Source: Thermohalobacter berrensis
Lineage (GTDB): Bacteria > Bacillota > Clostridia > Tissierellales > Thermohalobacteraceae
NCBI RefSeq assembly: GCF_003609645.1
Contig: NZ_MCIB01000023.1
Location: forward strand, 62,001 to 126,000
Length of the DNA: 64,000 nt
Reading direction: 5' to 3'
Shown here in pieces: positions 41,638 to 64,000 of this stretch. Position numbers and translations under genes: made by a program. The notes under the pieces were generated by a model. That model was not told the origin of the DNA, ran no database searches, and was given only the letters and a program-made list of their open reading frames with translations. Numbering within the stretch: position 1 is the first letter of the stretch; each line of letters opens with the position of its first letter.

Positions 41638-41638
41638 A

Positions 41639-41687: not shown

Positions 41688-41728
41688 TTGAGAAAATAAA
41701 AAATTAAGAAAAATACAGATTTAATAAG

Positions 41729-41745: not shown

Positions 41746-41784
41746 GATTTATATAAGTAGAATGAATCTAAAGGGGGGATTTTA

Positions 41785-42078
41785 TTGAAGTTTAAAGCAG
41801 TTATAGCAAACTTCAAAGACAATGTAGCTACTGCAATATCCAATATTAAAAAAGGAGAAACAGTATCAGTAAAGATAGACAAAGAATTATTAGAAATAAC
41901 TTCAAATGAAAATATTCCTTTTGGACATAAGCTATCTTTAACTGATATTCCAAAGGGAGAAGATGTAATAAAGTATGGAGAAGTAATAGGAAGAGCAACT
42001 AGGAATATTAGAAAAGGTGACTATGTACATATTCACAATGTAGAAAGTAAAAGAGGAAGAGGAGATTTAGTTAGATAA
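41785..42078 (+). CDS. UxaA-family dehydratase, small (SAF-domain) part
   Basis: Protein of 97 residues forming the SAF domain found at the N-terminus of altronate and galactarate dehydratases (IPFGHKLSLTDIPKGEDVIKYG). TTG 41785 follows AAGGGGGG. It is paired with the large part, 18 bp downstream. Small and large parts together make an acid-sugar dehydratase. Substrate unknown, probably a C4 to C6 aldonate matched to the rest of the operon. Confidence 0.87.
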   Translation: MKFKAVIANFKDNVATAISNIKKGETVSVKIDKELLEITSNENIPFGHKLSLTDIPKGEDVIKYGEVIGRATRNIRKGDYVHIHNVESKRGRGDLVR

Positions 42079-42096
42079 GGAAAAGGGGGATTGATT

Positions 42097-43254: not shown

Positions 43255-43305
43255 ATTAATATAATTCTATCTTTAACTTAATTAATTACTAGGGAGGTTA
43301 TTTAT

Positions 43306-44253: not shown

Positions 44254-44277
44254 ATTAAATAGGGAGGAGTTTACAAT

Positions 44278-45558: not shown

Positions 45559-45564
45559 TATAAA

Positions 45565-46566
45565 ATGTCTGCTGATAATTCTATTATAGGTGTAACAATG
45601 GGGGATCCAGCTGGTATAGGACCTGAAATTATATTAAAGAGCTACAAGAATAAATATTTAAAAACTTATAATTTAGTTATAATAGGTAATGTAGATGTAA
45701 TGGAAAAAGTAAAAAATAAAATAGGAATTAAAGGTATTGATGTCAATAAAATTAATAATATTTCTAAAGCAAAATTCAAGAAGAATACTGTAAATGTATT
45801 ACATCTAAATAATGTCGAAATTAAAGAATTAGTCCCAGGCAAAGTTCAAAGTATGGCAGGGAATGCAGCTTATGAATATGTAGTTAAAGCAGTGGAACTG
45901 GCAACAAATAATAAAATAGATGCTATTGCAACAGCACCTCTTAACAAAGAAGCTATGCATAAGGCAGGTCATAAATACCCTGGTCATACAGAAATCCTTG
46001 CTACATTGACGAATACTAAAGACTATGCAATGCTTTTATACGATAAAAAATTAAAGGTTATACATGTTTCAACACATATTTCTTTAAGAGAAGCAATTTA
46101 TACGTTAAACAAGGATAGAATTGTAAAGGTTATAAAAGTTGCTCACAATACAATGGAAAGGTTAGGATATAAAAACCCTAGAATAGGAGTAGCAGGTATT
46201 AATCCCCATGCAGGAGAAAATGGTCTGTTTGGAAATGAAGAAAAGAGAGAAATAATACCTGCTATAGATATGGCTAGGGAAGATGGAATTAATGTAGATG
46301 GTCCAGTTTCTCCTGATACTATATTTGTGAAAGCTAAAAATGGTGAGTATGATATTGTTGTTGCAATGTATCATGATCAAGGACATATACCACTCAAATT
46401 ATTAGGATTTAATACAGGAGTTAATATAACGGCAGGTCTTCCAATTATACGCACTTCAGTAGACCATGGAACAGCATTTGGGAAAGCTTGGAAGGGAACA
46501 GCTAATGAATTTAGTATGGTGCAAGCTATTAATTTAGCCTATAAATTAGCTTCTTCATGTAAGTAA
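45565..46566 (+). CDS. pdxA2: PdxA2-type 4-phospho-threonate dehydrogenase
   Basis: Protein of 333 residues of the PdxA family. It has GVTMGDPAGIGPEIILK at the N-terminus, ATAPLNKEAMHKAGHKYPGHTE, and the metal-binding histidines in VAMYHDQGHIPLK and TSVDHGTAFGKAW. In this context it should oxidise 4-phospho-D-threonate or -erythronate and lose CO2 to give dihydroxyacetone phosphate, rather than make pyridoxal phosphate. It is last in the operon; the leader 2 hairpin begins seven bases after its stop and can act as its terminator. Confidence 0.87.
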   Translation: MSADNSIIGVTMGDPAGIGPEIILKSYKNKYLKTYNLVIIGNVDVMEKVKNKIGIKGIDVNKINNISKAKFKKNTVNVLHLNNVEIKELVPGKVQSMAGNAAYEYVVKAVELATNNKIDAIATAPLNKEAMHKAGHKYPGHTEILATLTNTKDYAMLLYDKKLKVIHVSTHISLREAIYTLNKDRIVKVIKVAHNTMERLGYKNPRIGVAGINPHAGENGLFGNEEKREIIPAIDMAREDGINVDGPVSPDTIFVKAKNGEYDIVVAMYHDQGHIPLKLLGFNTGVNITAGLPIIRTSVDHGTAFGKAWKGTANEFSMVQAINLAYKLASSCK

Positions 46567-46573
46567 ATTAACA

Positions 46574-46763
46574 GTCGTCGACCTCCAGTAGTGCAAAAGC
46601 CCCTGGAGATCGACGACTCTTTGTTTTTGAAGGTAAAAATAGCTGTAATATAGTGTTTTGAAGGGATTAAAGGGTATTTATAAGGAAGAAAGTTATAGAA
46701 AAAAGTGGTAAAAACCAAATTGACAAAAAATAGTAAACCTGATAAAATCAATATATGTAATGG
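46574..46763 (+). promoter_or_regulatory. CRISPR leader 2
   Basis: Near copy of leader 1. The hairpin is at 46574-46617 with the right arm changed to CTGGAGATCGACGAC, which turns a G-T pair into an A-T pair. The promoter and the leader end match the others. It immediately follows pdxA2. Confidence 0.85.
46720..46748 (+). promoter_or_regulatory. pre-crRNA promoter, array 2
   Basis: TTGACA at 46720 and TAAAAT at 46743 with a 17-base spacer, identical to leader 1. Confidence 0.75.
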
Positions 46764-48431: not shown

Positions 48432-49187
48432 ATGAGATTAGAAGTTGATTTTACATTTAAGGATAAATTAATTTTACCAATCCATTATAATCACATAGTA
48501 CAAGGATTTATTTACAATAACATTTCTGATGCTGCATTTCGTAAATTTCTCCATGATAAAGGATACAAATATGAAAAGAGAAATTTCAAATTATTTACAT
48601 TCTCCAGAATAATGGGAAAATTTAAAATGAATAAAAAGGAATCTACCATTACTTTCTTTTCACCAATAAAACTTGTCGTTTCTTCAATTTTAGATGATTT
48701 TGTTAATGACTTTGTTACTACTCTAATGAAAAAGGAAGATCTTAGACTAAGAAATACACCCATCAATTTTGATAAGATGGAAGTTCATGATTATAATAAT
48801 CAATCAGATGAAGTACATATTAGTATGCTTTCACCTATGACAACCTATAGTACCGTTGAAATACACAGAAAGAAAAAAACTATTTATCATAAACCAGGTG
48901 ATGATATCTTTTCTGATTTAATTTATAAAAATCTTAAGAAGAAATATAAATCTATATATGGAGGGGAAGCACCAGAAGGAGAGTTTTTAATAAAACCTGT
49001 AGATGAGAATAAAATGAAGCTTATATCAGCTAAATACAGAGGTTTTATCATAAAAGGTTGGCTAGGTGAATACATATTAAAGGGTGATCCAGAGTTAATA
49101 AAACTTGCATACGATACAGGACTAGGTAGCAAAAATGCCCAAGGTTTTGGGTGTTTTAAAATTAAAAATAGAAGGGAGGGAAGTTGA
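48432..49187 (+). CDS. cas6: Cas6 crRNA-processing endoribonuclease
   Basis: RAMP-fold nuclease of 251 residues that should cut the pre-crRNA eight bases before each spacer. The N-terminal strand MRLEVDFTFKDKLILPIHYN includes a candidate catalytic histidine, and the C-terminal glycine-rich loop GLGSKNAQGFGCFKI is diagnostic of Cas6. First gene of the type I-B operon, with GGAGGGG before its ATG. The stop overlaps the cas8b start. Confidence 0.92.
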   Translation: MRLEVDFTFKDKLILPIHYNHIVQGFIYNNISDAAFRKFLHDKGYKYEKRNFKLFTFSRIMGKFKMNKKESTITFFSPIKLVVSSILDDFVNDFVTTLMKKEDLRLRNTPINFDKMEVHDYNNQSDEVHISMLSPMTTYSTVEIHRKKKTIYHKPGDDIFSDLIYKNLKKKYKSIYGGEAPEGEFLIKPVDENKMKLISAKYRGFIIKGWLGEYILKGDPELIKLAYDTGLGSKNAQGFGCFKIKNRREGS

Positions 49188-51088
49188 TGCAAGAAGGTAT
49201 TTTACAAATAGGAAAAGCAGTATATGATAAAGAAAATTTTTTAAATAACATTGTCGAAAAAATTGATATAAAAGATAAAAAGGGTAATCCCAAATATATA
49301 ATACAGATAAATTTTGACACAAAAAGTCAGAAAATTGAAATAAAACTACGTGAAGAAGCAAATACAAAATCACCTCAAAATCTCCTTTGGATAGGCACAG
49401 CAGATGGGCCTAGTTCTCCTCAGTGGTACACAACAGGAAATAAACCTACTTATTTAATATCCCAAGTAATACCTAACTTAGTAAATATGGAAATAGAGGG
49501 TTTAAGTAACGATTTAAAAAGTATCTTTGATAATTTTTTCTACGATATGGGAGAACTAGATAAAAGAAAAAAAAGATATAGATATGTAATCGATTTAAGT
49601 AAACTATCTACTGATTTAAAGTCTAATGAAGAAATTCTAAAAGAATGTGATGGAGATGTAAAAAAGGCTATAAAAAAGGTAGAAAAAGAGATAAATGATT
49701 ATATCAAGAAAGAACTAGGAATTAAGCCAAAAGAAGTAGCTCTTTATTTCTTATCAATAGATAATGTACCTATAAGTGATAATAAGGAATATAGAAAAAG
49801 GGTAAAAAAAGAGAAACTTAAGGCGTTTGAACAGGGAGAAAAAGGGGTTTGCTCTATATGTAGCAGTAAAGAAGGATTAAGTTCTGATACCAGTAAATTA
49901 CAACTTAAATTTTATACCACTACTAATCTTAACTTTCCATCAGGGTTTTCAAAGAAAAACTATTCAAAAAATATGCTCTTATGTAAAGAATGTATGTTAC
50001 AGTTGATAGCTGGAGAACAATTTATAATGGATAAGCTAAAAACTAATATAGGTGGCCTGCAGATATATTTAATTCCCCATTTCTTATATGATTCTAGTTT
50101 AACAAGAAATGATATGGAACTAATTTCAGAAAGAATTATGGATACCTTTACTACTTCAAAAAAAGTAGAGGGAATAGTAGAACTAGAAGGGGAAATATGG
50201 GATACTATTGATTTAAGTGGTAAAGAAAACTATTATCTTTTAAATATTTTATTTTATAAAAGTTCACAACAGGCTGTTAAAGTACAAAAACTAATAAAAG
50301 ATGTACATCCATCTAGATTTAGTACAATTATTAATAATTCTCATATAGTTAGAAATGACTTTAAAAAATTAATATCAAACAAACTATCTATTCCTTTTGG
50401 TTTAGAGAGTGTTTATTATCTAATACCAGTAAAAATTAAACAGGGTGAGATAAAAGAATATAGGAAGCTTTTAACTATTTATGAAGCAATATTTAAAAAG
50501 CTTCCAATTAAAAAAGATATGCTTCTTAAATCTCAAATTAAATTAATGAGAATTCATTACTTTGAAAATCAAAGACAATATAATGTAAAAAAAGCTAAAC
50601 TACATAATGCAATGATACAGTCAAACATGTTTTTTAAATTCTTAGAAAATATAGGATGTTTAGAAAGGGGGAGAGTGATGGATACAGATAAGTTAAACAT
50701 TGAAGATGATATGAAAAATTACATAGAAGAAATGAGATATAACGAAGAAGAAGCTGCTATGTTTTTATTAGGTTGTTTGGTAGGTAAGGTAGGTAATAAG
50801 CAATATACTGATAGAAGTGGTAAGAAACCAATTCTTAATAAACTAAATTTTAATGGTATGGATATATCTAAAACAAAGAGATTATCCTCTGAAATAGTAA
50901 GTAAATTAAGACAAAATAAAATATTAAAATATAACGAAAAACTATATGCAGCCCATAAACAGTTATTTGATAAGAATATAAAAAATTGGAGTTTAAACAA
51001 GCATGACAATTTGTATTATATACTTTCAGGATATTCTTATGTTACTTCAAAAACAATGTTAAGAGAAGGGGGAAGCAAAGATGAATAA
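49187..51088 (+). CDS. cas8b: Cas8b large subunit of type I-B Cascade
   Basis: Large subunit of 633 residues, Csh1/TM1802-like. It has a zinc-finger-like pair of CxxC motifs (CSIC near 221 and CKEC near 266) seen in this group. Cas8b recognises the PAM and recruits Cas3. The ATG at 49187 overlaps the cas6 stop (TGATG) and follows GGGAGGG. The last 136 codons appear to have a separate internal start (see cas11b). Confidence 0.9.
   Translation: MQEGILQIGKAVYDKENFLNNIVEKIDIKDKKGNPKYIIQINFDTKSQKIEIKLREEANTKSPQNLLWIGTADGPSSPQWYTTGNKPTYLISQVIPNLVNMEIEGLSNDLKSIFDNFFYDMGELDKRKKRYRYVIDLSKLSTDLKSNEEILKECDGDVKKAIKKVEKEINDYIKKELGIKPKEVALYFLSIDNVPISDNKEYRKRVKKEKLKAFEQGEKGVCSICSSKEGLSSDTSKLQLKFYTTTNLNFPSGFSKKNYSKNMLLCKECMLQLIAGEQFIMDKLKTNIGGLQIYLIPHFLYDSSLTRNDMELISERIMDTFTTSKKVEGIVELEGEIWDTIDLSGKENYYLLNILFYKSSQQAVKVQKLIKDVHPSRFSTIINNSHIVRNDFKKLISNKLSIPFGLESVYYLIPVKIKQGEIKEYRKLLTIYEAIFKKLPIKKDMLLKSQIKLMRIHYFENQRQYNVKKAKLHNAMIQSNMFFKFLENIGCLERGRVMDTDKLNIEDDMKNYIEEMRYNEEEAAMFLLGCLVGKVGNKQYTDRSGKKPILNKLNFNGMDISKTKRLSSEIVSKLRQNKILKYNEKLYAAHKQLFDKNIKNWSLNKHDNLYYILSGYSYVTSKTMLREGGSKDE
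50678..51088 (+). CDS. cas11b: Cas11b small subunit from an internal start inside cas8b
   Basis: In frame with cas8b, an ATG at 50678 is preceded by AAAGGGGGAG, an excellent ribosome site that is out of place inside a gene. Translation from it gives 136 residues (MDTDKLNIEDDMKNYIEEMR onward), about the size of the helical Cascade small subunit. Internal translation of Cas11 from cas8b is established for other type I-B, I-C and I-D systems. No separate cas11 gene is in the operon, which supports this reading. Not proven without protein data. Confidence 0.65.
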   Translation: MDTDKLNIEDDMKNYIEEMRYNEEEAAMFLLGCLVGKVGNKQYTDRSGKKPILNKLNFNGMDISKTKRLSSEIVSKLRQNKILKYNEKLYAAHKQLFDKNIKNWSLNKHDNLYYILSGYSYVTSKTMLREGGSKDE

Positions 51089-51974
51089 TAGTGAAATACT
51101 ATTTTTGTATGATGCCAAAATGACTAATCCAAATGGGGACCCTGATGAGGAAAATAGACCAAGGATGGATTATGAAAGGGACATAAATTTAGTTTCAGAT
51201 TTAAGACTTAAAAGATATATAAGAGATTACTTAGAAATGCAAGGAGAAAGGATATTTGTAACAAAGCTTGAGGATAAATCTGTAAAACCTGAAAAAATAA
51301 TAGATAAGCTAAAGAAGGATTTAGGTAAGAAAAAATTGACAAAGGAAGAAATATTAAAGGAGCTTATAGATGTAAGATTATTTGGTGCAACAATGCCAAT
51401 AGAAAGGGATACTAAGACATTTACAGGACCAGTTCAATTTAATTGGGGGTACTCTTTAAATAAGGTTGAGCTTATTGAAGCTGCAATTACTTCACATTTT
51501 TCTACAGATAGTAAAAACCAGCAAGGGGCCATGGGTAGAGATTATAGAGTGAAATATTCTTTTATAGCTTTTTCAGGAGTTATTAGCGGAAATAGGGCAA
51601 AACATACACTATTGACTGAAGATGATGTTAATAAATTAGATAAAGCCATGGTTAAATCTATACCTTTACTATCCACTAGAAGTAAGGTTGGACAATATCC
51701 AAGATTATATATGAGAGTAGAGTATAAGGATAATGAAACAATATTGGGAGATATGAGAAGTACAATTGAATTAATTGAGAAAAATGAAAGCCCTAGGGAT
51801 ATTTCAGAGATAAAAATTGATGTTACTAAATTAGTAAAACATCTTGAAGATAATAAAGATAGAATAGAGTCTATATATTATTTTGCAGATCCTAATTTAG
51901 AAATATATCAAGAAGGGGAAGAAAAAGAATTTAAAGATATATTTAATAGTTTTAACCTTGTGGAAGTTAGGTGA
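51081..51974 (+). CDS. cas7: Cas7 (Csh2-type) Cascade backbone subunit
   Basis: Backbone protein of 297 residues that would coat the crRNA in several copies. The opening MNNSEILFLYDAKMTNPNGD with ENRPRMDYERDINLVSDLRL is the Csh2/Cas7b signature, followed by LIDVRLFGATMPI and the FTGPVQFNWGYSLN stretch. The start overlaps the cas8b end by eight bases and the stop overlaps a GTG that precedes cas5. Confidence 0.93.
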   Translation: MNNSEILFLYDAKMTNPNGDPDEENRPRMDYERDINLVSDLRLKRYIRDYLEMQGERIFVTKLEDKSVKPEKIIDKLKKDLGKKKLTKEEILKELIDVRLFGATMPIERDTKTFTGPVQFNWGYSLNKVELIEAAITSHFSTDSKNQQGAMGRDYRVKYSFIAFSGVISGNRAKHTLLTEDDVNKLDKAMVKSIPLLSTRSKVGQYPRLYMRVEYKDNETILGDMRSTIELIEKNESPRDISEIKIDVTKLVKHLEDNKDRIESIYYFADPNLEIYQEGEEKEFKDIFNSFNLVEVR

Positions 51975-51979
51975 TAAAC

Positions 51980-52729
51980 ATGAAAAAGGATATTCTAATA
52001 TTTGATGTAGAAGGATATGCAGCCCATTTTAGAAAGTTTTATACAAATTCATCTTCACTATCATATAGTGTTCCTCCAAGAACAGTAATATCTGGTATAA
52101 TAGCAGCTATTATGGGAATTGAAAGGGATACTTACTATGATGATTTTAGTAAAGCAAATCTAGAAATAGCAGTAAGAAAAAATAAAAAAACTAGAAAAAT
52201 TATGCAGACAGTTAACTACATGAAAATCACATCAAACAAGCATTTTCAAATACCTGAAGAACATACACAAATACCTTTTGAAATTATATTAGGTGAAAAG
52301 GGATGTGTAAGCTATAGGTTTTATGTTTCTCATCATGATAAAACTTTTTTAGACCAATTAGAAAAAAGAATAAAAGAGAAGAGATATTATTACTCTCCCT
52401 ATCTAGGTACAGCTTCCTTTTCTTGTAGTTTTAAATATATAGACAGAGTTAAGGGAGATGAAAAACAAACAGATTCTGAAATTTATATTGCTACAGTAGT
52501 TCCATTTAATTCTATTATCGAAAGGGGTATAAAATTAAGTAAAATAAATACTACACAAGTATTATTAATGAAAGAAAAAATGCCTTCAGAATTTACAGGA
52601 GATAGAGAAATAAAATCTGTAGAATCCTATGTATATGACGAAAATACTAATCCATTACCAGTTATCTTAAAAGAAAATTATATAAACCTTAATTATAATG
52701 GAGAAAGTGAAAATATAGTTTTTATGTAG
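51980..52729 (+). CDS. cas5: Cas5 (type I-B)
   Basis: RAMP protein of 249 residues that holds the 5' end of the crRNA in Cascade. The N-terminus has DILIFDVEGYAAHFRKFYTN and YSVPPRTVISGIIAAIMGIE, the Cas5h motif. ATG 51980 was preferred to GTG 51971, which lies within the preceding stop overlap and lacks spacing to the TAGGTG site. cas3 follows directly. Confidence 0.9.
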   Translation: MKKDILIFDVEGYAAHFRKFYTNSSSLSYSVPPRTVISGIIAAIMGIERDTYYDDFSKANLEIAVRKNKKTRKIMQTVNYMKITSNKHFQIPEEHTQIPFEIILGEKGCVSYRFYVSHHDKTFLDQLEKRIKEKRYYYSPYLGTASFSCSFKYIDRVKGDEKQTDSEIYIATVVPFNSIIERGIKLSKINTTQVLLMKEKMPSEFTGDREIKSVESYVYDENTNPLPVILKENYINLNYNGESENIVFM

Positions 52730-52740
52730 AGGTGTTTAAT

Positions 52741-55041
52741 ATGGAATTTAAATCCCATCCAAATAAAAAATTGATAAGACACCTAAAGGAAGTAGAAGAT
52801 TATGCTAGTAAATTTTTAAAAGATAATGAACAAAGAATAAAAACATCTTTAAGCATTATATGTAAGTGTCATGATTTTGGAAAATATACTACATATTTTC
52901 AAGAACACTTATTTGAAAATTACAGTGGTGATTTATCAAACCATGGATTTATTTCAGCACTTTTTGGGGGATTTGTGGGATTAAAAGTATTTGGGGAGGA
53001 TAATTATCTTCCCCTTATCTTATATAGTGTAATACTCCATCATCACGGTAACTTAGATGATATATATGCTGATTTACCAAATAGATTAAGGTTTAACAGA
53101 CAATCATTAAAGGTAGAATTAAAAATTAAACTTGATGCTGTAGATAAACAATTGGATAACATGAATGAAAACTTTCAGATTATTTATTCAGAATTAGAAG
53201 AACTAGGTATACATGAGTATTTTAAAGAGTTTATTAAAAATAGACCTTATGAAGAAATATTAAGGAGTTTATTAAAAATTGCTAAATTAATAGAAAGAAA
53301 CAAAATAAATAAAGATAAATTATATTCAACACATCAATTATTATATTCTTGTCTTATAGATGCAGACAAACTTAGTGCGTCCCAAACACCGTTACCAGAA
53401 ACAAAGGAACTTACATATTCTAGTTTACTTGAAAAATATAAAAGAATGTTTAAAAAGAAAACCTATGGAAAGCTAGATGAAATGAGGACAGATATTTTCA
53501 ACAGGATACAAAAAAACCTTGTATCTAGTTATGAGGATAATAAATACTTTTCCATTACTGCTCCTACAGGTTCAGGAAAAACTTTAGCTGGATTTTATGC
53601 AGCCAAAAAACTTAGAGAACTTTTAGGAGGAAATCGTAAAATAATCTATGCCCTTCCATTTACTTCAATAATTGACCAAAACTATTCTGTTATAACAAAT
53701 TTACATGAAGATAATGAAGATTTTAAAAATAACCCCAGTCAATATATATTAAAACACCATCACTTATCAGATATAGATTATAGAACTGAAGAGAAAGATT
53801 ATAATATTGATGCTTCAAATTTGCTTCTAGAAGGTTGGAAAAGTTCAATAATTGTAACTACTTTTGTACAATTATTTGAAACCTTGATTGGATATAGGAA
53901 CAAAATGTTAAAGAAATACCATAACCTTAGGGGTGCTGTAATACTATTAGATGAGCTTCAGACAATAGACATTAGATATTGGAAACTAATAGATTATGTA
54001 TTAAAAAAGTGTTGTGAAGAATTAGACTGTAGAATAATTACCATGACAGCTACTAAACCCATAATATTAAAGGATAGCAAGGAATTGCTAGATAACTACA
54101 AGGATTATTTCAAGAAATTAAACAGAGTAAAACTATATTTTGATGATAAAGAGAAAACTATAGACGAGTTTTGTAATGATTTTAGAAGTACTATTGAAGA
54201 TAAATCATATTTGATAATATGCAACACTATAGGACAATCCATAGAAGTATATGAAAGATTAAAGGATTTAGATAGGGAAGTAATATATTTATCAACAAAT
54301 ATAATTCCAAAAATGAGAAGGAAACGTATAGAAAAAATAAAGGATATAATGGATTCAAAGCCAATAGTTGTATCAACACAGGTTGTAGAGGCAGGTGTTG
54401 ATTTAGATTTTGATGTGGTATATAGGGATTTAGCTCCATTAGATAGCATAATACAGGCAGCTGGAAGATGTAATAGAAATGCAGAAAAAAAGGGAGAAGT
54501 TAAGGTAATAAAATTAGTTAAAGATGATATGTTAACTGGCAAATACATATATGGTTCTATACTTTTAATCTTAACGAATGAAATTTTAAAAAAGGGAGAG
54601 TTTGAAGAGTCGGAGTTTTTAACTTTAATTCAAACATATTTTAGAAAAGCTATTGAAAAGGTAAATTCAACAGATGAATCTGATAAATTAATTAAATGGA
54701 TAGAAAACATTAAGTTTGGAGATATAAAGAGTTTTTCTTTAATAAAAAATAGACCAGATTATGTGGATGTGTACTTTGAAATAGATGATTTTGCAAAAAA
54801 ATTGTTTCAAAAATATAAAGACGAAGTTATTGGTGAAACTGATTATAAAAAAAGGAATAAAGCAATATTAAGGCTGAAACCTAAACTTAGAGATTATATT
54901 ATATCCTTGCCTGTTAAATTCTGTAAAGAATTTATAGATGAGAAAACTTTTTTAAGGATGCCTATTGAAGATAAACAAAGGGTATATAGGGATGATATAG
55001 GATTCAACAGAGATAAAATAGACGAAACAATAATATTTTAA
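52741..55041 (+). CDS. cas3: Cas3 HD nuclease-helicase
   Basis: Effector of 766 residues. The N-terminal HD nuclease has CHDFGK (H44, D45) and a HHHGN metal motif. The superfamily 2 helicase has Walker A APTGSGKT (about 277-284), the DEAD-like LLDELQT (about 404), SAT-like TATKP, and the C-terminal QAAGRCNRN motif. HD and helicase are in one chain, as usual. It would unwind and degrade target DNA recruited by Cascade. ATG 52741 follows GAGGTG; GTG 52732 is in that site. Confidence 0.95.
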   Translation: MEFKSHPNKKLIRHLKEVEDYASKFLKDNEQRIKTSLSIICKCHDFGKYTTYFQEHLFENYSGDLSNHGFISALFGGFVGLKVFGEDNYLPLILYSVILHHHGNLDDIYADLPNRLRFNRQSLKVELKIKLDAVDKQLDNMNENFQIIYSELEELGIHEYFKEFIKNRPYEEILRSLLKIAKLIERNKINKDKLYSTHQLLYSCLIDADKLSASQTPLPETKELTYSSLLEKYKRMFKKKTYGKLDEMRTDIFNRIQKNLVSSYEDNKYFSITAPTGSGKTLAGFYAAKKLRELLGGNRKIIYALPFTSIIDQNYSVITNLHEDNEDFKNNPSQYILKHHHLSDIDYRTEEKDYNIDASNLLLEGWKSSIIVTTFVQLFETLIGYRNKMLKKYHNLRGAVILLDELQTIDIRYWKLIDYVLKKCCEELDCRIITMTATKPIILKDSKELLDNYKDYFKKLNRVKLYFDDKEKTIDEFCNDFRSTIEDKSYLIICNTIGQSIEVYERLKDLDREVIYLSTNIIPKMRRKRIEKIKDIMDSKPIVVSTQVVEAGVDLDFDVVYRDLAPLDSIIQAAGRCNRNAEKKGEVKVIKLVKDDMLTGKYIYGSILLILTNEILKKGEFEESEFLTLIQTYFRKAIEKVNSTDESDKLIKWIENIKFGDIKSFSLIKNRPDYVDVYFEIDDFAKKLFQKYKDEVIGETDYKKRNKAILRLKPKLRDYIISLPVKFCKEFIDEKTFLRMPIEDKQRVYRDDIGFNRDKIDETIIF

Positions 55042-55063
55042 CTTTTAAATTAGGAGGAGTTTT

Positions 55064-55564
55064 GTGGAAGATATAAGGGTTAATGGTACTCTTATTTGGT
55101 ACTACCATATATGCAAAAGGGAAGTATGGCTTATGGCACATGGAATAGTAGCTGATCAAGAAAATACTTACATGGATTTAGGCAGGTTTATACATGATAA
55201 TTCTTATTCTAGAAAAAAGAAAGAGGTATCAATAGGAAATATAAAAATAGATGTAATAAGTAAAGGGGATGGACAAGTAGTTGTAGGAGAAGTTAAAAAG
55301 AGTTCAAGGTTTAAGGAAAGTTCTAGGATGCAGCTTGCATATTATTTGTGGCAGCTTAAAAAACAAGGTGTTGAGGGAGCAGGGATTTTGATGTTTCCAA
55401 AGGAGAGAAAAAGAGAAGAAATAAATTTAACTGATGAGCTAATAAATGAGCTTAAAGCTATTGAAAAAGATATTTTAAAGATAATATATAGAACTTATCC
55501 TGAGAAACCTAAAAAAATTCCTTTTTGTAAAAAGTGTGCATATAGTGAATTTTGTTGGTCTTGA
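55064..55564 (+). CDS. cas4: Cas4 Fe-S exonuclease
   Basis: Adaptation nuclease of 166 residues. The RecB-type core has GDGQVVVGEVKKSS and the QLAYYLWQL (QxxxY) motif. Fe-S cysteines are one near the N-terminus (HICKREVW) and three near the C-terminus (PFCKKCAYSEFCW). Cas4 trims prespacers and fixes PAM and orientation with Cas1-Cas2. GTG start 55064 behind AGGAGGAG. Confidence 0.93.
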   Translation: MEDIRVNGTLIWYYHICKREVWLMAHGIVADQENTYMDLGRFIHDNSYSRKKKEVSIGNIKIDVISKGDGQVVVGEVKKSSRFKESSRMQLAYYLWQLKKQGVEGAGILMFPKERKREEINLTDELINELKAIEKDILKIIYRTYPEKPKKIPFCKKCAYSEFCWS

Positions 55565-55576
55565 TGAGGTGATTTA

Positions 55577-56569
55577 GTGAAAAAAACCATTTATATTTTT
55601 AATGATGGACGATTAAAAAGAAAAGATAATACTTTATATTTTGAAACTGAAAAAGGTAGAAAGTTTGTACCTGTAGAAGATGTAAGCGATTTTTATATAT
55701 TTGGTGAAGTTGACTTAAATAAAAGACTTTTAGATTTTCTTACAAAGAAAAAAATAATTCTTCACTTTTTCAATTACTATGGGTACTATATAGGATCATA
55801 TTATCCTAGGGAGTATCTAAATTCAGGCTATATGATATTAAAACAAACAGAACATTATATTGATGAAAATAAAAGACTTAAAATAGCAAGAGAAATAGTA
55901 AAGGGTAGCAGTAAAAATATGCTTAATGTAATAAAATATTATATAAATCGTGGTAAAGAGCTTGAAAATATTAATAATAGTATAGAAAGTCTTTACAATC
56001 AAATTAATGAATGTAAAAACACATCTGAATTAATGGGGATAGAGGGGAATATAAGAGATGTTTATTATAAGGGATTCGACGAAATAATTGATGATAATAA
56101 TTTTGAATTTAATCAAAGAACGAAACGTCCACCAGAAAATAAATTAAATGCTTTAATAAGTTTTGGTAATTCAATGTTGTATGTACTTGTATTAGGAGAA
56201 ATATATAAAACCCACTTAGACCCTAGAATAGGATATTTGCATACTACTAATTTTAGACGTTTCACCCTAAATTTAGATATAGCTGAAATTTTTAAACCAA
56301 TTATAGTTGATAGGATTATATTTTCACTTATATCAAAAAAAATGATTACTAAGAAGGATTTTGAAAAGGATATGGGAGGAATCCTTTTAAATGAAAAGGG
56401 AAAGAAAACATTTATACAAGAATTTGATAAAAGATTAAAGACTACCATAAAGCACCGAAAGTTAGGAAGAAAAGTATCCTACAGAAGACTTATAAGAATG
56501 GAGCTATATAAATTAGAAAAACATCTGATAGGTGAAAAGGAATATACACCTTATGTTTCCAAATGGTAA
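55577..56569 (+). CDS. cas1: Cas1 integrase (type I-B)
   Basis: Integrase of 330 residues. The C-terminal helical domain has LISFGNSMLYVLVLGEI, the histidine in GYLHTTNF and the acidic LDIAEIFKPIIVDR, which hold the catalytic Glu-His-Glu/Asp set. It joins new spacers next to the leader. GTG 55577 follows GAGGTG, 12 bases after the cas4 stop. One cas1 must serve all four arrays. Confidence 0.95.
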   Translation: MKKTIYIFNDGRLKRKDNTLYFETEKGRKFVPVEDVSDFYIFGEVDLNKRLLDFLTKKKIILHFFNYYGYYIGSYYPREYLNSGYMILKQTEHYIDENKRLKIAREIVKGSSKNMLNVIKYYINRGKELENINNSIESLYNQINECKNTSELMGIEGNIRDVYYKGFDEIIDDNNFEFNQRTKRPPENKLNALISFGNSMLYVLVLGEIYKTHLDPRIGYLHTTNFRRFTLNLDIAEIFKPIIVDRIIFSLISKKMITKKDFEKDMGGILLNEKGKKTFIQEFDKRLKTTIKHRKLGRKVSYRRLIRMELYKLEKHLIGEKEYTPYVSKW

Positions 56570-56581
56570 TGAGGTGGTATT

Positions 56582-56845
56582 TTGTTTGTTATTTTGGTAT
56601 ATGATGTAGGTGTTAAAAGGGTAAATAAAGTATTAAAAACATGTAGAAGGTACTTACATTGGGTACAAAATTCAGTTCTAGAAGGAGACATTACTGAAGC
56701 AAACCTGATAAAACTAAAAACTGAACTTAAAAGTATTATAAATGATAATGAAGATTCAGTAATAATATATAAGTTTAGAACTAAGAAATATCACAACATA
56801 GAGACATTAGGGATAAAAAAAGGTGGGGAAGAAAATATTTTATAA
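56582..56845 (+). CDS. cas2: Cas2
   Basis: Adaptation subunit of 87 residues with the ferredoxin-like Cas2 fold (FVILVYDVGVKRVNKVLKTC, WVQNSVLEGDI). It starts at TTG 56582 behind GAGGTGG. It ends the cas operon; the leader 3 hairpin starts 17 bases after its stop and may end the transcript. Confidence 0.95.
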   Translation: MFVILVYDVGVKRVNKVLKTCRRYLHWVQNSVLEGDITEANLIKLKTELKSIINDNEDSVIIYKFRTKKYHNIETLGIKKGGEENIL

Positions 56846-56862
56846 ACTTTAATAAACAAAAA

Positions 56863-57052
56863 GTCGTCGACCTCCAGTAGTGCAAAAACCCCTGGGGATC
56901 GACGACTTTTTGTTTTTGAAGATAAAAGTAGATGTAATATAGTGTTTTGAAGGGATTAAAGGGTATTTATATGGGAGAAGGTAATAGAAAAAAGTGGTAA
57001 AAATCAAATTGACAAAAAATAGTAAACCTGATAAAATCAATATATGTAATGG
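56863..57052 (+). promoter_or_regulatory. CRISPR leader 3
   Basis: Same layout as leaders 1 and 2: hairpin 56863-56906, T-runs, then the promoter. It directly follows cas2. A few substitutions (GATGTAATATAG, GGGAGAAGG) set it apart from the others. Confidence 0.85.
57009..57037 (+). promoter_or_regulatory. pre-crRNA promoter, array 3
   Basis: TTGACA at 57009 and TAAAAT at 57032, 17-base spacer. Confidence 0.75.
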
Positions 57053-60000
57053 GTTACTAGAGTACCTATGAGGAATTGAAACCTTATGTCAAGAGTTACT
57101 GTATTTGAAAGCGTATTACCAGTTACTAGAGTACCTATGAGGAATTGAAACTATAAAAAAACTTTCTAATACAGTAATAATCTAATGTGTTACTAGAGTA
57201 CCTATGAGGAATTGAAACAAAGAAGTAGATAAAAGATACAATTTGTTTTATGAAAAGTTACTAGAGTACCTATGAGGAATTGAAACTCAAATTGTCATAA
57301 TTGATGAATTTGCAGACCTTCAAGTTACTAGAGTACCTATGAGGAATTGAAACCTCCATTGTATTCTATGATATGTGTTTTAGTTTCTGCGTTACTAGAG
57401 TACCTATGAGGAATTGAAACATAATCTTCCTAATAATCTTCATCATCTTCTAAATCTGTTACTAGAGTACCTATGAGGAATTGAAACGTGAAAAAGCTAA
57501 GCAAGATATATTAAAATACTTAGAAAGTTACTAGAGTACCTATGAGGAATTGAAACTATTGATATTTAAAAATTGTTAATGCTTCAGCTATAAGTTACTA
57601 GAGTACCTATGAGGAATTGAAACAGCGTTTTCTATTATATATATAGTGGTTTATTCCGGGTTACTAGAGTACCTATGAGGAATTGAAACCCATCTCTATC
57701 TTTGCCTAAATATCTTAATTGTCCAAGTTACTAGAGTACCTATGAGGAATTGAAACTTGACGAGAAACTAGTAATAGAATAAGGAGGCGACACAGTTACT
57801 AGAGTACCTATGAGGAATTGAAACTATATTGGTGTTTTTCTGGCCCGTATTTGCTGCAAGTTACTAGAGTACCTATGAGGAATTGAAACCATAATTTATC
57901 AATTTCAGTTGTCATATCCTTACCATAGTTACTAGAGTACCTATGAGGAATTGAAACTCTAACTACAACACAAGTATAATTTTGCTAAAACTAAGTTACT
58001 AGAGTACCTATGAGGAATTGAAACTCTAATTTTTTAAGTTTCTTTTGGGCTTTTTCTTCATTGTTACTAGAGTACCTATGAGGAATTGAAACAATTAAGT
58101 GTTTCTAACGCCCTATCTATTTTTCTTAGTTACTAGAGTACCTATGAGGAATTGAAACACTTGTTCTTCTGCAATACTTGAAGGCAATGTAACTGTGTTA
58201 CTAGAGTACCTATGAGGAATTGAAACTGTTATTAGCAACGTCTACTGTTACTCTATACTTCCTTTGTTACTAGAGTACCTATGAGGAATTGAAACTATAA
58301 CTCTCTTTGTATATCTTCATCTGGATGTTCAGTTACTAGAGTACCTATGAGGAATTGAAACAATTCTATAGATATTGAAGGTAAACCCATTTAAAACTCG
58401 TTACTAGAGTACCTATGAGGAATTGAAACATAGAAAAAAACAAAAAGACAGGAAAAGAACCGAGCAGTTACTAGAGTACCTATGAGGAATTGAAACGCAA
58501 CTGTATAGCTGATACTGCATGAAAATCCTGTAACGTTACTAGAGTACCTATGAGGAATTGAAACCCAATCCATTTGTGCCTTCTGCCATTCCACTACTAT
58601 TGTTACTAGAGTACCTATGAGGAATTGAAACTGGACATAACAATTTTCTTCATTGCCATATCCACTCCAAAAGTTACTAGAGTACCTATGAGGAATTGAA
58701 ACTCGATAGTGAGAGGTTTTTCATATTGATATATTTTAGGCGTTACTAGAGTACCTATGAGGAATTGAAACATCTTCCTTTTAATTCTTTCTTAGTCGGA
58801 TATTTACGTTACTAGAGTACCTATGAGGAATTGAAACTATCCTTTCTCTCTCAAATATTGCACTTGGTTTCCAAGCGTTACTAGAGTACCTATGAGGAAT
58901 TGAAACAACAATATAAAACAGACTGCCACTCAAATTTAAAAGTGTTACTAGAGTACCTATGAGGAATTGAAACATCTTCCTTTTAATTCTTTCTTAGTCG
59001 GATATTTACGTTACTAGAGTACCTATGAGGAATTGAAACCTTTTCCCATAATTTGTAACAACCTGAAATGCTCCTTGGTTACTAGAGTACCTATGAGGAA
59101 TTGAAACTGTATAAAAAATATACATAAATGTATAAATAAGGTACGTTACTAGAGTACCTATGAGGAATTGAAACTCGTGATGAAAATGGTTGGAGGTATG
59201 ATGTTGCATATGGTTACTAGAGTACCTATGAGGAATTGAAACTTGCACATGGAAATATAGTGAAAAAGACTTATGTAAAAGTTACTAGAGTACCTATGAG
59301 GAATTGAAACCATTGGAGACTTTTTCTAAGACGTGGACGGCTGAGGAAGTTACTAGAGTACCTATGAGGAATTGAAACGCGACCGTAACCTCTGTACGTG
59401 TATGGAGATTTTTTACAGTTACTAGAGTACCTATGAGGAATTGAAACAAGGTCTATTTCAGACCGATAATAGCGCCGTAAATGGTTACTAGAGTACCTAT
59501 GAGGAATTGAAACAAAATATACTAAGAGGACACCCGCCGAATAGATTAAGTTACTAGAGTACCTATGAGGAATTGAAACGTTTTACAAGCTACTAAGCAA
59601 TAGTAAAAGGAGGTGGTTACTAGAGTACCTATGAGGAATTGAAACATGCTCTACAACCTACAATTCTACCTTGTTCATCTCGTTACTAGAGTACCTATGA
59701 GGAATTGAAACTAACTACTTTTTCCCTTGTTTTCTGCCATCCTTCTATGTTACTAGAGTACCTATGAGGAATTGAAACTTGTATCAAATTTTGCTGTGAC
59801 TGTCAAGTGTTTTTTTGTTACTAGAGTACCTATGAGGAATTGAAACAAATCACAGTGTCACAGCGTCACAGCGTCACAGTGTAGTTACTAGAGTACCTAT
59901 GAGGAATTGAAACAAATGTTTACACCTCCTTTTACTATTGCTTAGTAGCTTGTTACTAGAGTACCTATGAGGAATTGAAACCTATTTGTTTTGAATCTTT

Positions 60001-60450
60001 ATATAGTTTATCTAGTGTGTTACTAGAGTACCTATGAGGAATTGAAACTTGCACATGGAAATATAGTGAAAAAGACTTATGTAAAAGTTACTAGAGTACC
60101 TATGAGGAATTGAAACCATTGGAGACTTTTTCTAAGACGTGGACGGCTGAGGAAGTTACTAGAGTACCTATGAGGAATTGAAACGCGACCGTAACCTCTG
60201 TACGTGTATGGAAATTTTTTACAGTTACTAGAGTACCTATGAGGAATTGAAACAAGGTCTATTTCAGACCGATAATAGCGCCGTAAATGGTTACTAGAGT
60301 ACCTATGAGGAATTGAAACAAATGATGAACAAACGTTCACTGGAAAACAGAAAAACGTTACTAGAGTACCTATGAGGAATTGAAACTTTCTTGTCTTTAT
60401 TTTCATCTTATTTACCTCCCTTGTTACTAGAGTACCTATGAGGAACAAAA
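57053..60450 (+). CRISPR. CRISPR array 3: 50 intact repeats plus a degenerate end repeat
   Basis: The longest array. All repeats begin GTTACTAGAGTACCTATGAG and end GGAATTGAAAC, so they carry both variant bases. The last copy (60423) is cut short with GAGGAACAAAA. There are 50 spacers of about 35-39 bp. Four consecutive spacers are duplicated (59243-59483 and 60049-60289), one single spacer is repeated (58772 and 58974), and one pair are reverse complements. Confidence 0.97.
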
Positions 60451-60514
60451 GAAGTTGAAAATTGAAAATATTAAATAGGCAATAGAAAAGGATTTAAGTT
60501 ACAGAGGTGGAAAA

Positions 60515-60706
60515 ATGGACTTAAAGGGAGTCTTAAATATTTTAATAAAAATAAGTATCACATTTTTGTATAGTGCAGGTATTATAGGAATGATTTATGA
60601 TTATGCTTATACTTCAGAAAGAGGATTTACCTTTTATTTATTAATTTTTATAATCGCAGTACAAGCAACTATGTTGCATAAAAAGAAGAAATTTTCTAAT
60701 GACTAG
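60515..60706 (+). CDS. small membrane protein
   Basis: Protein of 63 residues with two hydrophobic helices (about 8-28 and 38-54), a short loop (YDYAYTSERGF) and a basic C-terminus (HKKKKFSND). AGAGGTGG lies ahead of its ATG. It sits between array 3 and the CARF gene, 167 bp from the latter, with a terminator between. No family recognised; a role in defence is only suggested by position. Confidence 0.6.
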   Translation: MDLKGVLNILIKISITFLYSAGIIGMIYDYAYTSERGFTFYLLIFIIAVQATMLHKKKKFSND

Positions 60707-60757
60707 ATATTTTGTAAAATAAACAATAAAGAACTAATAGGTGTAATAGATTGGATT

Positions 60758-60783
60758 GTTAGTATACCTATGGGTAATTAAAA
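60758..60783 (+). repeat. probable relic of a CRISPR repeat
   Basis: GTTAGTATACCTATGGGTAA followed by TTAAAA resembles the array 3 repeat with a four-base deletion and a few substitutions. It stands alone about 300 bp beyond the array. Confidence 0.4.
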
Positions 60784-60787
60784 TTTA

Positions 60788-60830
60788 TTAAATCCCTTCA
60801 AAAATGTTTTTGAAGGGATTTAATTTTTTT
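60788..60830 (+). terminator. terminator ahead of the CARF gene
   Basis: Near-perfect stem TTAAATCCCTTCAAAA / TTTTGAAGGGATTTAA, then eight T residues. Confidence 0.88.
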
Positions 60831-60872
60831 TGCAGAAAAATATATTATTAGATAGAAAAGGGGGATAACAGG

Positions 60873-62222
60873 ATGGAATTTGATGCAAAAAAATTAGCCA
60901 AATTAAGAGATAAACCTAAAGAGTTAATTAAGCTTATTAATAATAGAGACCAAGACTTTATGAACTATCTAAAGACATTCGAGAATAAGAAAGAAATCCA
61001 AGAAGTGCTTAAAGAAGAATATGACATAGCTATCTATACTGTAGGTTTTTCAATTTATCCGTTACTTTTCAGTCTTAAAGTAGCAAATCCTAAAGAAAAA
61101 GCAATTTTTTTCTATACTAAAGCAAGCTCAAAGTTTAAAGAGGTTTTTGATGAGTTCAAAAAAGAATTTAATTTAGACTTTGAAATAAAACATAGGACGA
61201 CTGAAAGTTCATCTGACACAGCAGAAATATACCATGAGATTGAAAGGGTATTAAGAAAGCACAGAAATAAAAAAATTGCTATAGATATTACTGGAGGTAA
61301 GAAACCAACTATTGCAGCAGGTTTTTTTGGAGCTTCTTTACATAGTGATGAAAATGATATAGATATATTATATATGGATTTTTCAGAATATAAAAATGAT
61401 ATACCTGTTTATGGTTCAGAATTTATAACTATTTTGTTAAACCCTAATGATATATTTAGTGCAGTTGAGAGAAAAGAACTTGAAGAGCTATTTGATTCTG
61501 GACAATACAGGGCAGCAAGAAGATTTTCTAAAAGAATAAGGGACAGACTTAAGGCTATATTAAAAAAAATGAAATCTTATGATTTAGATGAACAATTGGC
61601 TGAAATTAAAAAGATCTACTATTTTTCAAAGTTATACGAATTAAGAAATGACTTTAATTATGAAGAATGTATAATAAGAGAAGAATATTTAACAAAAGCT
61701 GAGATAAAGGGAATATCTAAATTAAAAAAGGCATATAGTAAGATAACAGATTTAGAAGATGAATTATTAAGTAAAGGGTATAGGGGAATAGATGTAAGCA
61801 CTCAACTTACAAGAAGATTACATAACAGATTTAAAGACGATGATTCATGTTTATATCTAGCTTTAGATAGATATATAAGTGCATTAAGATATAAAAACAT
61901 AGACTATCAAAGTTATATTTTAAGACTTGTAAGTGTATTAGAACTAGCTGGTACTATTTATACTAAAGGCAGAAGTGAATTATTAAAGGATAAGTTAAAA
62001 ATAGTGCCTGATTATGAGTTGAGATATAAACTCAATGAATTAAAAAATACAAGAAATAATCTAAGTTTAATACATGGATTTAGAGTTGTAAGTGCACCAA
62101 AGCTTGATTATGAGGTAGCAGTACTTAATTATATTTGTTTAGCATTTGATGTTGATAAGCAAATGGTAGAAAATATTATAGAAAAAGAATTAAAGTTTAG
62201 AAACTTCAATGAAATAATTTGA
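60873..62222 (+). CDS. Cas02710-type CARF-HEPN CRISPR-associated protein
   Basis: Protein of 449 residues. The first half is a CARF-like Rossmann fold: IYTVGFSIYPLLFSL, then AIDITGGKKPTIAAGFFG (about 136-153), the ligand loop seen in the Cas02710/Csm6 group. The second half is helical and ends with RNNLSLIH (R394 to H401), a HEPN RNase motif (R, six residues, H). Such proteins are RNases switched on by cyclic oligoadenylate from type III systems. No cas10 is in the window, so the signal would have to come from elsewhere or be different. It has its own AAAGGGGGA ribosome site and stands alone between arrays 3 and 4. Confidence 0.82.
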   Translation: MEFDAKKLAKLRDKPKELIKLINNRDQDFMNYLKTFENKKEIQEVLKEEYDIAIYTVGFSIYPLLFSLKVANPKEKAIFFYTKASSKFKEVFDEFKKEFNLDFEIKHRTTESSSDTAEIYHEIERVLRKHRNKKIAIDITGGKKPTIAAGFFGASLHSDENDIDILYMDFSEYKNDIPVYGSEFITILLNPNDIFSAVERKELEELFDSGQYRAARRFSKRIRDRLKAILKKMKSYDLDEQLAEIKKIYYFSKLYELRNDFNYEECIIREEYLTKAEIKGISKLKKAYSKITDLEDELLSKGYRGIDVSTQLTRRLHNRFKDDDSCLYLALDRYISALRYKNIDYQSYILRLVSVLELAGTIYTKGRSELLKDKLKIVPDYELRYKLNELKNTRNNLSLIHGFRVVSAPKLDYEVAVLNYICLAFDVDKQMVENIIEKELKFRNFNEII

Positions 62223-62370
62223 TAAAATAATTAATATCTAATAGTAAAGTATACACAATTGAACTTGCTAGCAAAAATGTCTCATAAGATATTCAATCAA
62301 ACAATTAATCATATAAAAGTTGGCATGTTAAATTTCGAAGATACAAAAAGTTCAAAATTGGCTAATAATA

Positions 62371-62560
62371 GTCGTCGACCTCCAGTAGTGCAAAAACCCC
62401 TGGGGATCGACGACTTTTTGTTTTTGGAGGTAAAAGTAACTGTAATATAGTGTTTTGAAGGGATTGAAGGGTATTCATATGGAAGAATATTATAGAAAAA
62501 AGTGGTAAAAACTAAATTGACAAAAAATAGTAAACCTGATAAAATCAATATATGTAATGG
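62371..62560 (+). promoter_or_regulatory. CRISPR leader 4
   Basis: Fourth copy of the leader: hairpin 62371-62414 with T-runs and the promoter. It starts 148 bp after the CARF gene. Small differences (TTTTTGGAGG, GTATTCATATGG) distinguish it from the others. Confidence 0.85.
62517..62545 (+). promoter_or_regulatory. pre-crRNA promoter, array 4
   Basis: TTGACA at 62517 and TAAAAT at 62540, 17-base spacer. Confidence 0.75.
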
Positions 62561-64000
62561 GTTACTAGACTACCTATAAGGAATTGAAACAAAATTAAGT
62601 GAGGTTATATTATGGAATTGATAATTGCGTTACTAGACTACCTATAAGGAATTGAAACTAGCTTCTCCATGCGATTGTGTTTCTGCTTTGTGGTTGGTTA
62701 CTAGACTACCTATAAGGAATTGAAACCAGTCGCATGCAACCACAAAGCAGAAACACAATCGCATGTTACTAGACTACCTATAAGGAATTGAAACTTACAT
62801 ACGAGAGAGGGTGTATTGGATGGAAAGAGGGAGTTACTAGACTACCTATAAGGAATTGAAACTCTATATCTAAGGCTGTATTGCTTATTTGTACCTCTAT
62901 GTTACTAGACTACCTATAAGGAATTGAAACTGACATTGGGGGGTAATAAATATGATTGAATTTGATAGTTACTAGACTACCTATAAGGAATTGAAACTAG
63001 ACAACCTCTAACTCATTTAGTTGTTGAGGGCTAAGTTACTAGACTACCTATAAGGAATTGAAACAGCAAATCCCTTGCGTGTTTTGGTGTCAAATTCATT
63101 GTTACTAGACTACCTATAAGGAATTGAAACTTTCATCAAATTCATAATCGTCTATAACTTGTAATAACGTTACTAGACTACCTATAAGGAATTGAAACCT
63201 ATCTCAACATCATTATGACTACTAAATTTTATTACGTTACTAGACTACCTATAAGGAATTGAAACTCTAGCCTCATTCATTCTTCTAAAAGCTCTTAAAT
63301 AAGTTACTAGACTACCTATAAGGAATTGAAACTCAACAGGAAGGAATAATCCTTCCTAAACTTGTGCTAGTTACTAGACTACCTATAAGGAATTGAAACA
63401 ACCACAAAGGAACACAAGTAACTCAAGATCATTATAGTTACTAGACTACCTATAAGGAATTGAAACGAGATAAAGATGATGCAAATTTAACCTTTAATGT
63501 TGAGTTACTAGACTACCTATAAGGAATTGAAACTTCGCAGGTTGTAGAATGGGCTTCTTGTTCAGGAAGGGTTACTAGACTACCTATAAGGAATTGAAAC
63601 CCATCTAAAACTAAAGTATAAGATACTGCTCCTCCCCAGTTACTAGACTACCTATAAGGAATTGAAACAGGATTTCGACGGAGTACCGACTGACCCTGAC
63701 GACGTTAGTTACTAGACTACCTATAAGGAATTGAAACGCCCTCTCAAGTACATCTTTTGAAGGAGAGGATAGGGTTACTAGACTACCTATAAGGAATTGA
63801 AACGATGGGGGAGTAATGAAGAGATACAAGAATTAATTGAGTTACTAGACTACCTATAAGGAATTGAAACTCTTATATGGACTGCTGGAAACGATGGGGC
63901 AGGCAGTGGGTTACTAGACTACCTATAAGGAATTGAAACTAACAAAGTATTACTGATTGACCTTGACAAACAAAGGTTACTAGACTACCTATAAGGAATT
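62561..64000 (+). CRISPR. CRISPR array 4: 21 complete repeats, runs off the window
   Basis: Repeats are the GACTACC/TATAAGG type of array 1, without variants in the part seen. There are 21 spacers, and a 22nd repeat (63976) is cut by the window end. Spacers 2 and 3 are partly reverse complements of each other. Confidence 0.97.

Follow-up and report, generated by a model that had tools for sequence, protein, structure and literature searches.

A CARF-HEPN RNase gene between CRISPR arrays of Thermohalobacter berrensis: an ordinary Csx1-type effector of the adjoining type III-A system

The CARF-HEPN RNase gene that lies among type I-B CRISPR arrays in Thermohalobacter berrensis is an ordinary Csx1-type effector of the type III-A system next to it; neither a type I-B partner nor a different signal is supported. 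More precisely, we are confident that it encodes the ancillary RNase (Csx1, or cA4-type Csm6) of a III-A system that begins 3.1 kb downstream, and we propose that Csx20 resets its cA4 alarm. The data on which this reading is built are the gene itself, its predicted fold, its conserved residues, the adjoining III-A operon with intact Cas10 motifs and csx20, and the type III linkage of its relatives.

The window, that is, the whole stretch of 64,000 nucleotides that was analysed, covers bases 62001-126000 of the 137969 bases of contig 23. A second stretch of the same contig, L003, runs beyond it (window position = L003 position + 55999), and features past the window end are given below in window-equivalent positions.

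Results

The gene and its family

The open reading frame (449 aa, ATG start) occupies 60873-62222 on the plus strand, exactly where the preliminary description had placed it, and the two motifs on which that description relied are indeed there: the CARF core DITGGKKP at residues 138-145 and the HEPN motif RNNLSLIH at residues 394-401. CARF motif II (DITGGKK, residues 138-144; 61284-61304, plus strand) is invariant in an alignment of 25 sequences. The HEPN active-site motif, R394-x6-H401 (62052-62075, plus strand), has a spacing that falls inside the R-X4-6-H rule; R394, N395, S398 and H401 are invariant in an alignment of three sequences. All 25 homologs have an RN...H motif near the C-terminus, as R-x4-H or R-x6-H; in the 25-row alignment, where the R-H spacing varies between 4 and 6, the column of H401 is not listed as invariant.

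Two PADLOC profiles match the protein, CARF1--CARF_HEPN (PDLC01818, E 7.3e-34, residues 25-439) and Csx1/Csm6 (PDLC01031, E 2.3e-32), and the single matches from Pfam and from NCBIfam (HFX_2341_N, Csa3) are below threshold. With phmmer, four Csm6 sequences of solved structures are matched at E <= 1, the best at E 1.4e-9 over the CARF part, while a further aligned segment, across the HEPN motif, is non-significant alone. The family assignment is far beyond chance.

An AlphaFold2 monomer model made from the 25 sequences (mean pLDDT 91.2, pTM 0.80) points the same way. The eight best Foldseek matches are all chains of Thermus thermophilus Csm6 (TtCsm6), with a best E of 7.4e-14, and VIA-align places TtCsm6 Y161A with cA4 (8jh1) at Z 21.1, with an rmsd of 5.4 over 374 residues spanning 1-449 of the model; after the TtCsm6 entries come Csm6' of S. 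thermophilus (Z 17.6, 311 residues) and Csm6 of E. italicus (Z 16.1, 320 residues). Many CARF chains match the model at about residues 49-192, and the helical part is covered in the VIA table only by Csm6 rows. As CARF-only chains mostly fit at 2-3 Angstrom, we take the large rmsd of the model to reflect a different angle between the domains. The HEPN fold, which had been called from a motif, is borne out in the model by a whole-length match to Csm6 structures. An N-terminal CARF domain (PADLOC, phmmer, the model and the structure matches) is followed by a C-terminal HEPN domain with the R-X4-6-H motif (whole-length Csm6 match and 25 of 25 homologs), and the earlier call of a CARF-HEPN RNase was right; the cyclic-oligoadenylate trigger and the RNase activity are predicted from sequence and model. 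This is a familiar kind of alarm-triggered RNA-cutting enzyme, and the find is an ordinary one.

A type III-A operon just past the window edge

The preliminary description saw no cas10 and no other type III gene in the window. This is correct, and it is an artefact of the window edge, which falls short of the III-A operon. In the whole genome the Cas10 palm profile has one match, on the same contig (contig bases 128933-129379, E 1.9e-37), and the three RAMP matches of the genome all lie inside the same operon, beyond the window end. The gene cas10 (785 aa, window-equivalent 65364-67721, NCBIfam Csm1 E 1.1e-192) starts 1,364 bp past the window end and 3,141 bp from the stop codon of the CARF-HEPN gene, a gap that contains a leader and the 39 repeats of an array. 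It is followed on the same plus strand by csm2 (67724-68173), csm3 (68194-68907), csm4 (68918-69907) and csm5 (69913-71025), so that the five genes by which type III-A is recognised are all present and all above their NCBIfam cut-offs. Then come the second cas6 of the region (71027-71800; PADLOC only, E 4e-18) and, as last gene of the operon, csx20 (71790-72164; NF040559, E 2e-46; ATG start chosen by eye). Cas10 has both its HD (VHDIGK) and its GGDD motif, and the CARF-HEPN gene is encoded with a type III locus whose Cas10 keeps the cyclase motif. It is also the sole Csx1/Csm6 match of the genome, on the same contig and strand as the sole Cas10 match.

Two explanations had been offered. That a type III system supplies the signal was the right one, except that this system is not elsewhere in the genome but next door. 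The other, an RNase that responds to some different signal in the service of type I-B, finds no support, with a complete III-A operon adjoining the gene and its closest homologs standing beside cas10.

The arrays and their similar leaders

The complete type I-B operon reported in the window was recovered by Pfam, NCBIfam and PADLOC profiles upstream of the CARF-HEPN gene, as cas6-cas8b-cas7-cas5-cas3-cas4-cas1-cas2 (48432-56845, plus strand). The gene does lie between two arrays, both read on the plus strand. Array A (57053-60452, 51 repeats) follows leader 1 (56843-57082, an interval whose end includes the first repeat); array B (39 repeats) starts at 62561 and continues past the window end at 64000 to window-equivalent 65148. 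Between the CARF-HEPN gene and array B stands leader 2 (62351-62590, plus strand), 89% identical to leader 1. Five arrays are found in the window and L003 together, with leaders 90-94% identical over 200 bases (simple global alignment) and main repeat types 1-2 bases apart. The leaders have a conserved 44-bp hairpin, with copies in the window at 37457-37500, 46574-46617, 56863-56906 (leader 1) and 62371-62414 and a fifth at L003:16176-16219; four copies within 3 mismatches occur in the window versus none in 100 shuffles, and the fold of one copy has a z of -8.0. The only cas1 and cas2 matches in L003 are the I-B copies. From these sequences it is likely that the I-B and III-A systems draw on the same arrays.

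Some further observations concern this region. In array A a 300-nt block of four spacers is duplicated almost unchanged (L003:3214-3513 and 4020-4319; window 59213-59512 and 60019-60318), and in array B, at about 62660-62765 of the window, two adjacent spacers read, by eye, as reverse complements along some 29 nt, as would be expected had the two strands of a single target each supplied one. One spacer is nearly common to L003:7365 and 18907. The minus strand has an IS110-type transposase at 34047-34970. Between the first two arrays, at 39754-46566, come a sigma-54 regulator and catabolic genes of sugar-acid/D-threonate-like type. The contig ends (L003:19674-19970) inside a group II intron (RF02001 and RF01998), the likely cause of the assembly break.

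The immediate surroundings of the gene

A small two-helix membrane protein had been noticed beside the gene. A 63-aa hydrophobic frame does lie upstream (60515-60706, plus strand), its two-helix nature being a reading of the sequence. The family libraries give it weak matches (best E 0.019, to TMEM138, below the cut-off of that profile), and the relatives' loci examined give nothing related to it below E 0.5; as a partner of the CARF-HEPN gene it was dropped. A terminator-like hairpin of 17 pairs (60787-60824, plus strand) stands between the two, about 50 bp ahead of the CARF-HEPN start codon, which suggests that they are probably separate transcription units. The promoter region of its own that had been attributed to the gene could not be substantiated: the 13 promoter-like matches in 60400-62600 are no more than chance would give (mean of 14.4 in shuffles), that hairpin stands just upstream, and we claim no promoter.

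Relatives and their neighbourhoods

A search of genome contigs with the single protein gave no relative; an alignment of three sequences gave 66 loci, many of them CARF-only matches. At E <= 1e-15, 3 of the 391 class genomes sampled have a relative, T. berrensis among them; of 398 sampled from the phylum and, at E <= 1e-10, of 4 from the family, T. berrensis alone does. A search of plasmids gave 10 records, all of them Thermus csm6 and all partial. Counts out of 33 refer to loci L008-L040 (L010 is the same as L007, genome G025, and L009 the same as L006, genome G217); the Cas10 count covers 29 genomes, L035 being left out.

Comparison of these neighbourhoods, which the preliminary description had proposed as a check along with a genome-wide search for cas10, shows linkage to type III. 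Cas10 exceeds the cut-off in 24 of the 29 genomes. A type III locus directly past the window edge, with this gene as a usual partner, is just what the preliminary description had said would refute it, and it is what we see. The other five genomes are those of L017 (with cas1 and cas2), L018 (although its contig has csm3-csm4-csm5), L034/L038, L039 and L040. Type III genes are found in 22 of the 33 stretches (21 by phmmer, L028 by its Cas10) and in none of the remaining 11 (L015, L017, L025, L027, L029, L032, L034, L035, L038, L039, L040), although the genomes of L015, L025, L027, L029 and L032 do have a Cas10. In 11 of the 33 loci the relative directly follows csm5 (L010, L012, L013, L014, L018, L019, L020, L021, L022, L026 and L033); three of these frames are short (L018, 348 aa at a contig end; L019, 265 aa; L033, 342 aa).

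The two closest homologs, L008 (46% identity) and L009 (43-45%), stand directly upstream of cas10, ending 14 and 45 bp before it. The window has the same order with a leader and an array in between, and these may be later insertions. The neighbourhood of type I genes is met again in L010, where III-A is combined with type I cas3-cas4-cas1-cas2, and in L028, both of which have type III as well. The latter (L028:1961-20661), with an I-B operon (cas6 to cas4), then the CARF-HEPN gene, then a cluster whose GGDD Cas10 is about 3.8 kb past that gene, then cas1-cas2, reads as a merged I-B/III arrangement.

Discussion

Which signal, and from which system

Residues were mapped through a phmmer alignment with TtCsm6, the numbering of 8jbb agreeing with the residue names in PMC10897365. 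According to the mutants described in the passages of that paper on the cA4 site, T81 and K137 serve mainly for cA4 binding and Y161 and N164 for its cleavage; the double mutant T59A/S60A loses cleavage and RNase activity, whereas with T59A alone cleavage is not significantly affected. Both binding residues are found in our protein, as T82 and K144. Also kept are T133 and G135 (T140 and G142), Y161 (Y167), Y167 (Y173), E179 (E183) and S60, while T59 and N164 are replaced by phenylalanine (F59, F170) and R172/R173 fall in a gap. By sequence, then, the 449-aa protein likely binds cA4 in a pocket that differs from that of TtCsm6 at the changed and missing positions, and its self-cleavage of cA4 may be weak; if so, this would fit a dedicated csx20.

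The neighbouring genes bear on the same question. In the experiments reported in the ring-nuclease passages of PMC12409355, the Csx20 tested degraded cA4 fully, left cA6 untouched and had only very minor activity on cA3; the same passages have ring nucleases that occur with an effector accompany cA4 effectors, and Csm6 and Csm6-2 (cA6) not found with known ring nucleases. As the term is used in the relevant part of Hoikkala et al. 2024 (PMC11229360), Csx1 is the cA4-activated CARF-HEPN effector, some cA4-type Csm6 included, and the commonest of all (411 of 1113 loci). By what these two papers set out, the window gene is a Csx1: the lack of a stand-alone ring nuclease, which PMC12409355 associates with cA6-type Csm6, is not what we see, csx20 being the end of the III-A operon.

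The mechanism that we propose would run as follows. The III-A Csm complex with its crRNA would bind phage RNA, upon which Cas10 would make cyclic tetra-adenylate; this would enter the pocket formed by a CARF dimer, and the HEPN dimer would then cut RNA non-specifically, slowing phage and cell alike, until Csx20 destroys the cA4 and resets the system. In this scheme we infer cA4 as the ring size, dimerisation, RNase activity and the role of Csx20 as main off-switch.

The same III-A effector could instead be activated by cyclic hexa-adenylate, as a Csm6 in the strict sense, or by another ring size. The loss of T59 and N164 would suit this, and the cA6-type Csm6 entries 6tug and 8pe3 are among the structural matches (Foldseek and VIA), more weakly. 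We nevertheless think it improbable: the best matches are cA4-type TtCsm6 chains, with a Z of 21.1 where the next Csm6 reaches 17.6, the equivalents of T81 and K137 are retained, and the ring nuclease family to which the operon's own csx20 belongs acts on cA4 and is, in the passages of PMC12409355 already cited, absent with cA6 effectors.

A departure that we consider very improbable indeed is that the RNase serves type I-B under a signal from a source other than Cas10. One may point to its place between the I-B cas genes and arrays, to L028, where a distant relative directly follows I-B cas4, and to relatives that adjoin Mokosh-like helicases where the genome gives no match to Cas10. Yet a complete III-A operon is next door and the closest homologs adjoin cas10; L028, alone among the 66 loci in having I-B cas8b/cas7/cas5 matches within the stretch covered, has a GGDD Cas10 there too; and the helicase-side relatives are only partial matches to the window protein, 23-32% identical. 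No relative with I-B genes and without type III was seen in the locus stretches, which were screened for I-B as stretches and not as whole genomes. A refinement compatible with III-A control, to which we give somewhat less than even chances, is that the III-A complex uses spacers acquired by I-B, and perhaps crRNAs processed by I-B, through the common arrays. The five leaders, 90-94% identical, the near-identical repeats and the exclusively I-B cas1 and cas2 of L003 favour this, against which each operon has a cas6 of its own, so that processing need not be common, and the cas1 search was confined to L003. Shared arrays would in any case leave the signal unchanged, and we retain the reading of a cA4-triggered effector of III-A.

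Related loci with Mokosh-like helicases

The wider comparison gave two side leads. In L009 (L009:3365-12629; genome G217, Clostridiaceae MAG contig DUNT01000042.1) the 45%-identical homolog is followed by Cas10, a Csm4-like protein, a helicase, a 382-aa protein and a CARF-HEPN-Csx20 fusion (E 5.3e-119). This Cas10 (395 aa, with GGDD) is too short for an HD part and is matched by PADLOC at E 2.4e-26 and by hhalign at probability 99.4 against a set of 16 Cas10 rows that includes duplicates. The Csm4-like protein (279 aa; PADLOC E 1e-5) has an hhalign probability of 83.7 over 85 columns versus Csm4 and of 0.4 versus Csm3 and Csm5. The helicase (938 aa) is MkoA-like, that is, a Mokosh-like SF1 helicase (E 2.6e-116), and the 382-aa protein is without a family match. 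In G290, a genome of the same genus (L077:6397-14221), Cas10, Csm4-like protein, helicase, a 401-aa protein and CARF-HEPN-Csx20 are bounded by the flanking genes known from L009, some further genes being present as well; Cas10 is 70% and the Csm4-like protein 76% identical to those of L009, and the first CARF-HEPN gene is absent. The cassette is thus known from two genomes of one genus, out of 391 in the class draw. Cas1 is found in none of three genome entries, two of which (G217 and G778) are apparently one assembly. RAMP matches (Pfam PF03787) are likewise absent from G778 and from both G217 and G290, the latter two being 99% complete. The two cassette contigs (contigs, not whole genomes) have no CRISPR array, and a search of viral contigs with the short Cas10 gave none.

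We offer tentatively, and with slightly more doubt than belief, that the RNase lineage also serves a CRISPR-free alarm, in which infection would be sensed by the helicase, not by a crRNA complex, and Cas10 switched on in consequence, the CARF RNases reading the cyclic oligoadenylate that it makes; in L009 and G290 a crRNA-independent Cas10 alarm is possible. Against this, the assignment to Csm4 is weak; even the Csm4-like protein escaped the RAMP profile, as a diverged Cas7 could also have done; and the array search covered two contigs, the cassette being known from only two genomes of one genus. The cassette may also be a decayed type III system, although the two Cas10 proteins, 70% identical, both retain GGDD. 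None of this alters how we read the window gene.

The second lead is that 26 of the 66 loci (L035, L039, L041-L043, L045-L055, L057-L062, L069-L071 and L073) combine a CARF match with a helicase related to that of L009. Except in L041, those mostly of Bacteroidota have, in this order, the helicase, a 423-457 aa protein, a PLD-type protein, a stand-alone CARF protein (about 192 aa) and a protein of 357-373 aa, and in the actinobacterial ones the order is CARF-HEPN, helicase, a 391-493 aa protein and a PLD-type protein; domain names were tested in L042 (MkoA, PLD, CARF, Card1-like nuclease) and L039 (CARF-HEPN, PLD/MkoB), the others being placed by order and length. Cas10 exceeds the cut-off in none of the 24 helicase-locus genomes searched (23 plus that of L039; L035 and L052 are not covered), and one match is sub-threshold (G818, 22.7 bits). 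The 382-aa protein of L009 resembles the 440-aa protein of the Bacteroidota loci (hhalign probability 88.9), and this ties the cassette to them; versus the actinobacterial protein it scores 0.2, and Bacteroidota versus actinobacterial is weak (41.6). In the literature searched, mostly by title and opening of the abstract and without the main CARF survey (Makarova 2020), nothing was on point for a Cas10-helicase or Mokosh cassette with CARF. CoCoNuT loci, as presented in passages of PMC11090510, include CARF genes, some with UPF1-like helicases, but are built on McrB GTPases, and those passages have no Cas10-helicase cassette. We make no claim of first description for either kind of locus.

What the comparison means

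For the CARF-HEPN gene itself the lesson is small: a familiar arrangement was cut by a window boundary. An array and a leader between the effector and the cas10 operon do mean that a scan of single operons can miss such a pairing. The wider comparison weighs more than the gene, and the side leads are more novel than it is. Relatives occur in three settings: with full type III operons, in a Cas10-helicase cassette without detectable crRNA machinery, and in Mokosh-like loci of genomes with no Cas10 match. In these last loci the signal that activates the CARF effectors would lend itself to direct testing.

Comparison with known systems

The two closest loci, of Schnuerera sp. xch1 (L008) and the Clostridiaceae MAG (L009), have full-length homologs in the same order, CARF-HEPN then cas10, and each also carries a CARF-HEPN-Csx20 fusion gene. 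Their cas10 operons are unlike the III-A operon beside the window: that of L008 is a multi-Cas7 type III operon (Cas10 of 511 aa with GDD), and that of L009 is the short Cas10-Csm4-helicase cassette, with no Cas7 match.

The cA4-activated CARF-HEPN RNase TtCsm6 (PDB 5fsh, 8jbb, 8jh1) differs by its low identity (about 17%), by the two phenylalanines at T59 and N164 and by the gap at R172/R173. The window gene has an array between it and cas10 and csx20 in the operon, two points on which the Thermus loci were not compared. The likeness extends over the whole length of the fold (Z 21.1) and includes the HEPN RN...H motif, the cA4-binding T81 and K137 and the cleavage residue Y161; on Thermus plasmids csm6 is annotated as type III-A, and our gene is likewise III-A-linked. 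From its sequence, nothing that we found would set the window protein apart from the Csx1 family as characterised in the relevant part of Hoikkala et al. 2024 (PMC11229360), with which it appears to share domain make-up, type III linkage and predicted use of cA4.
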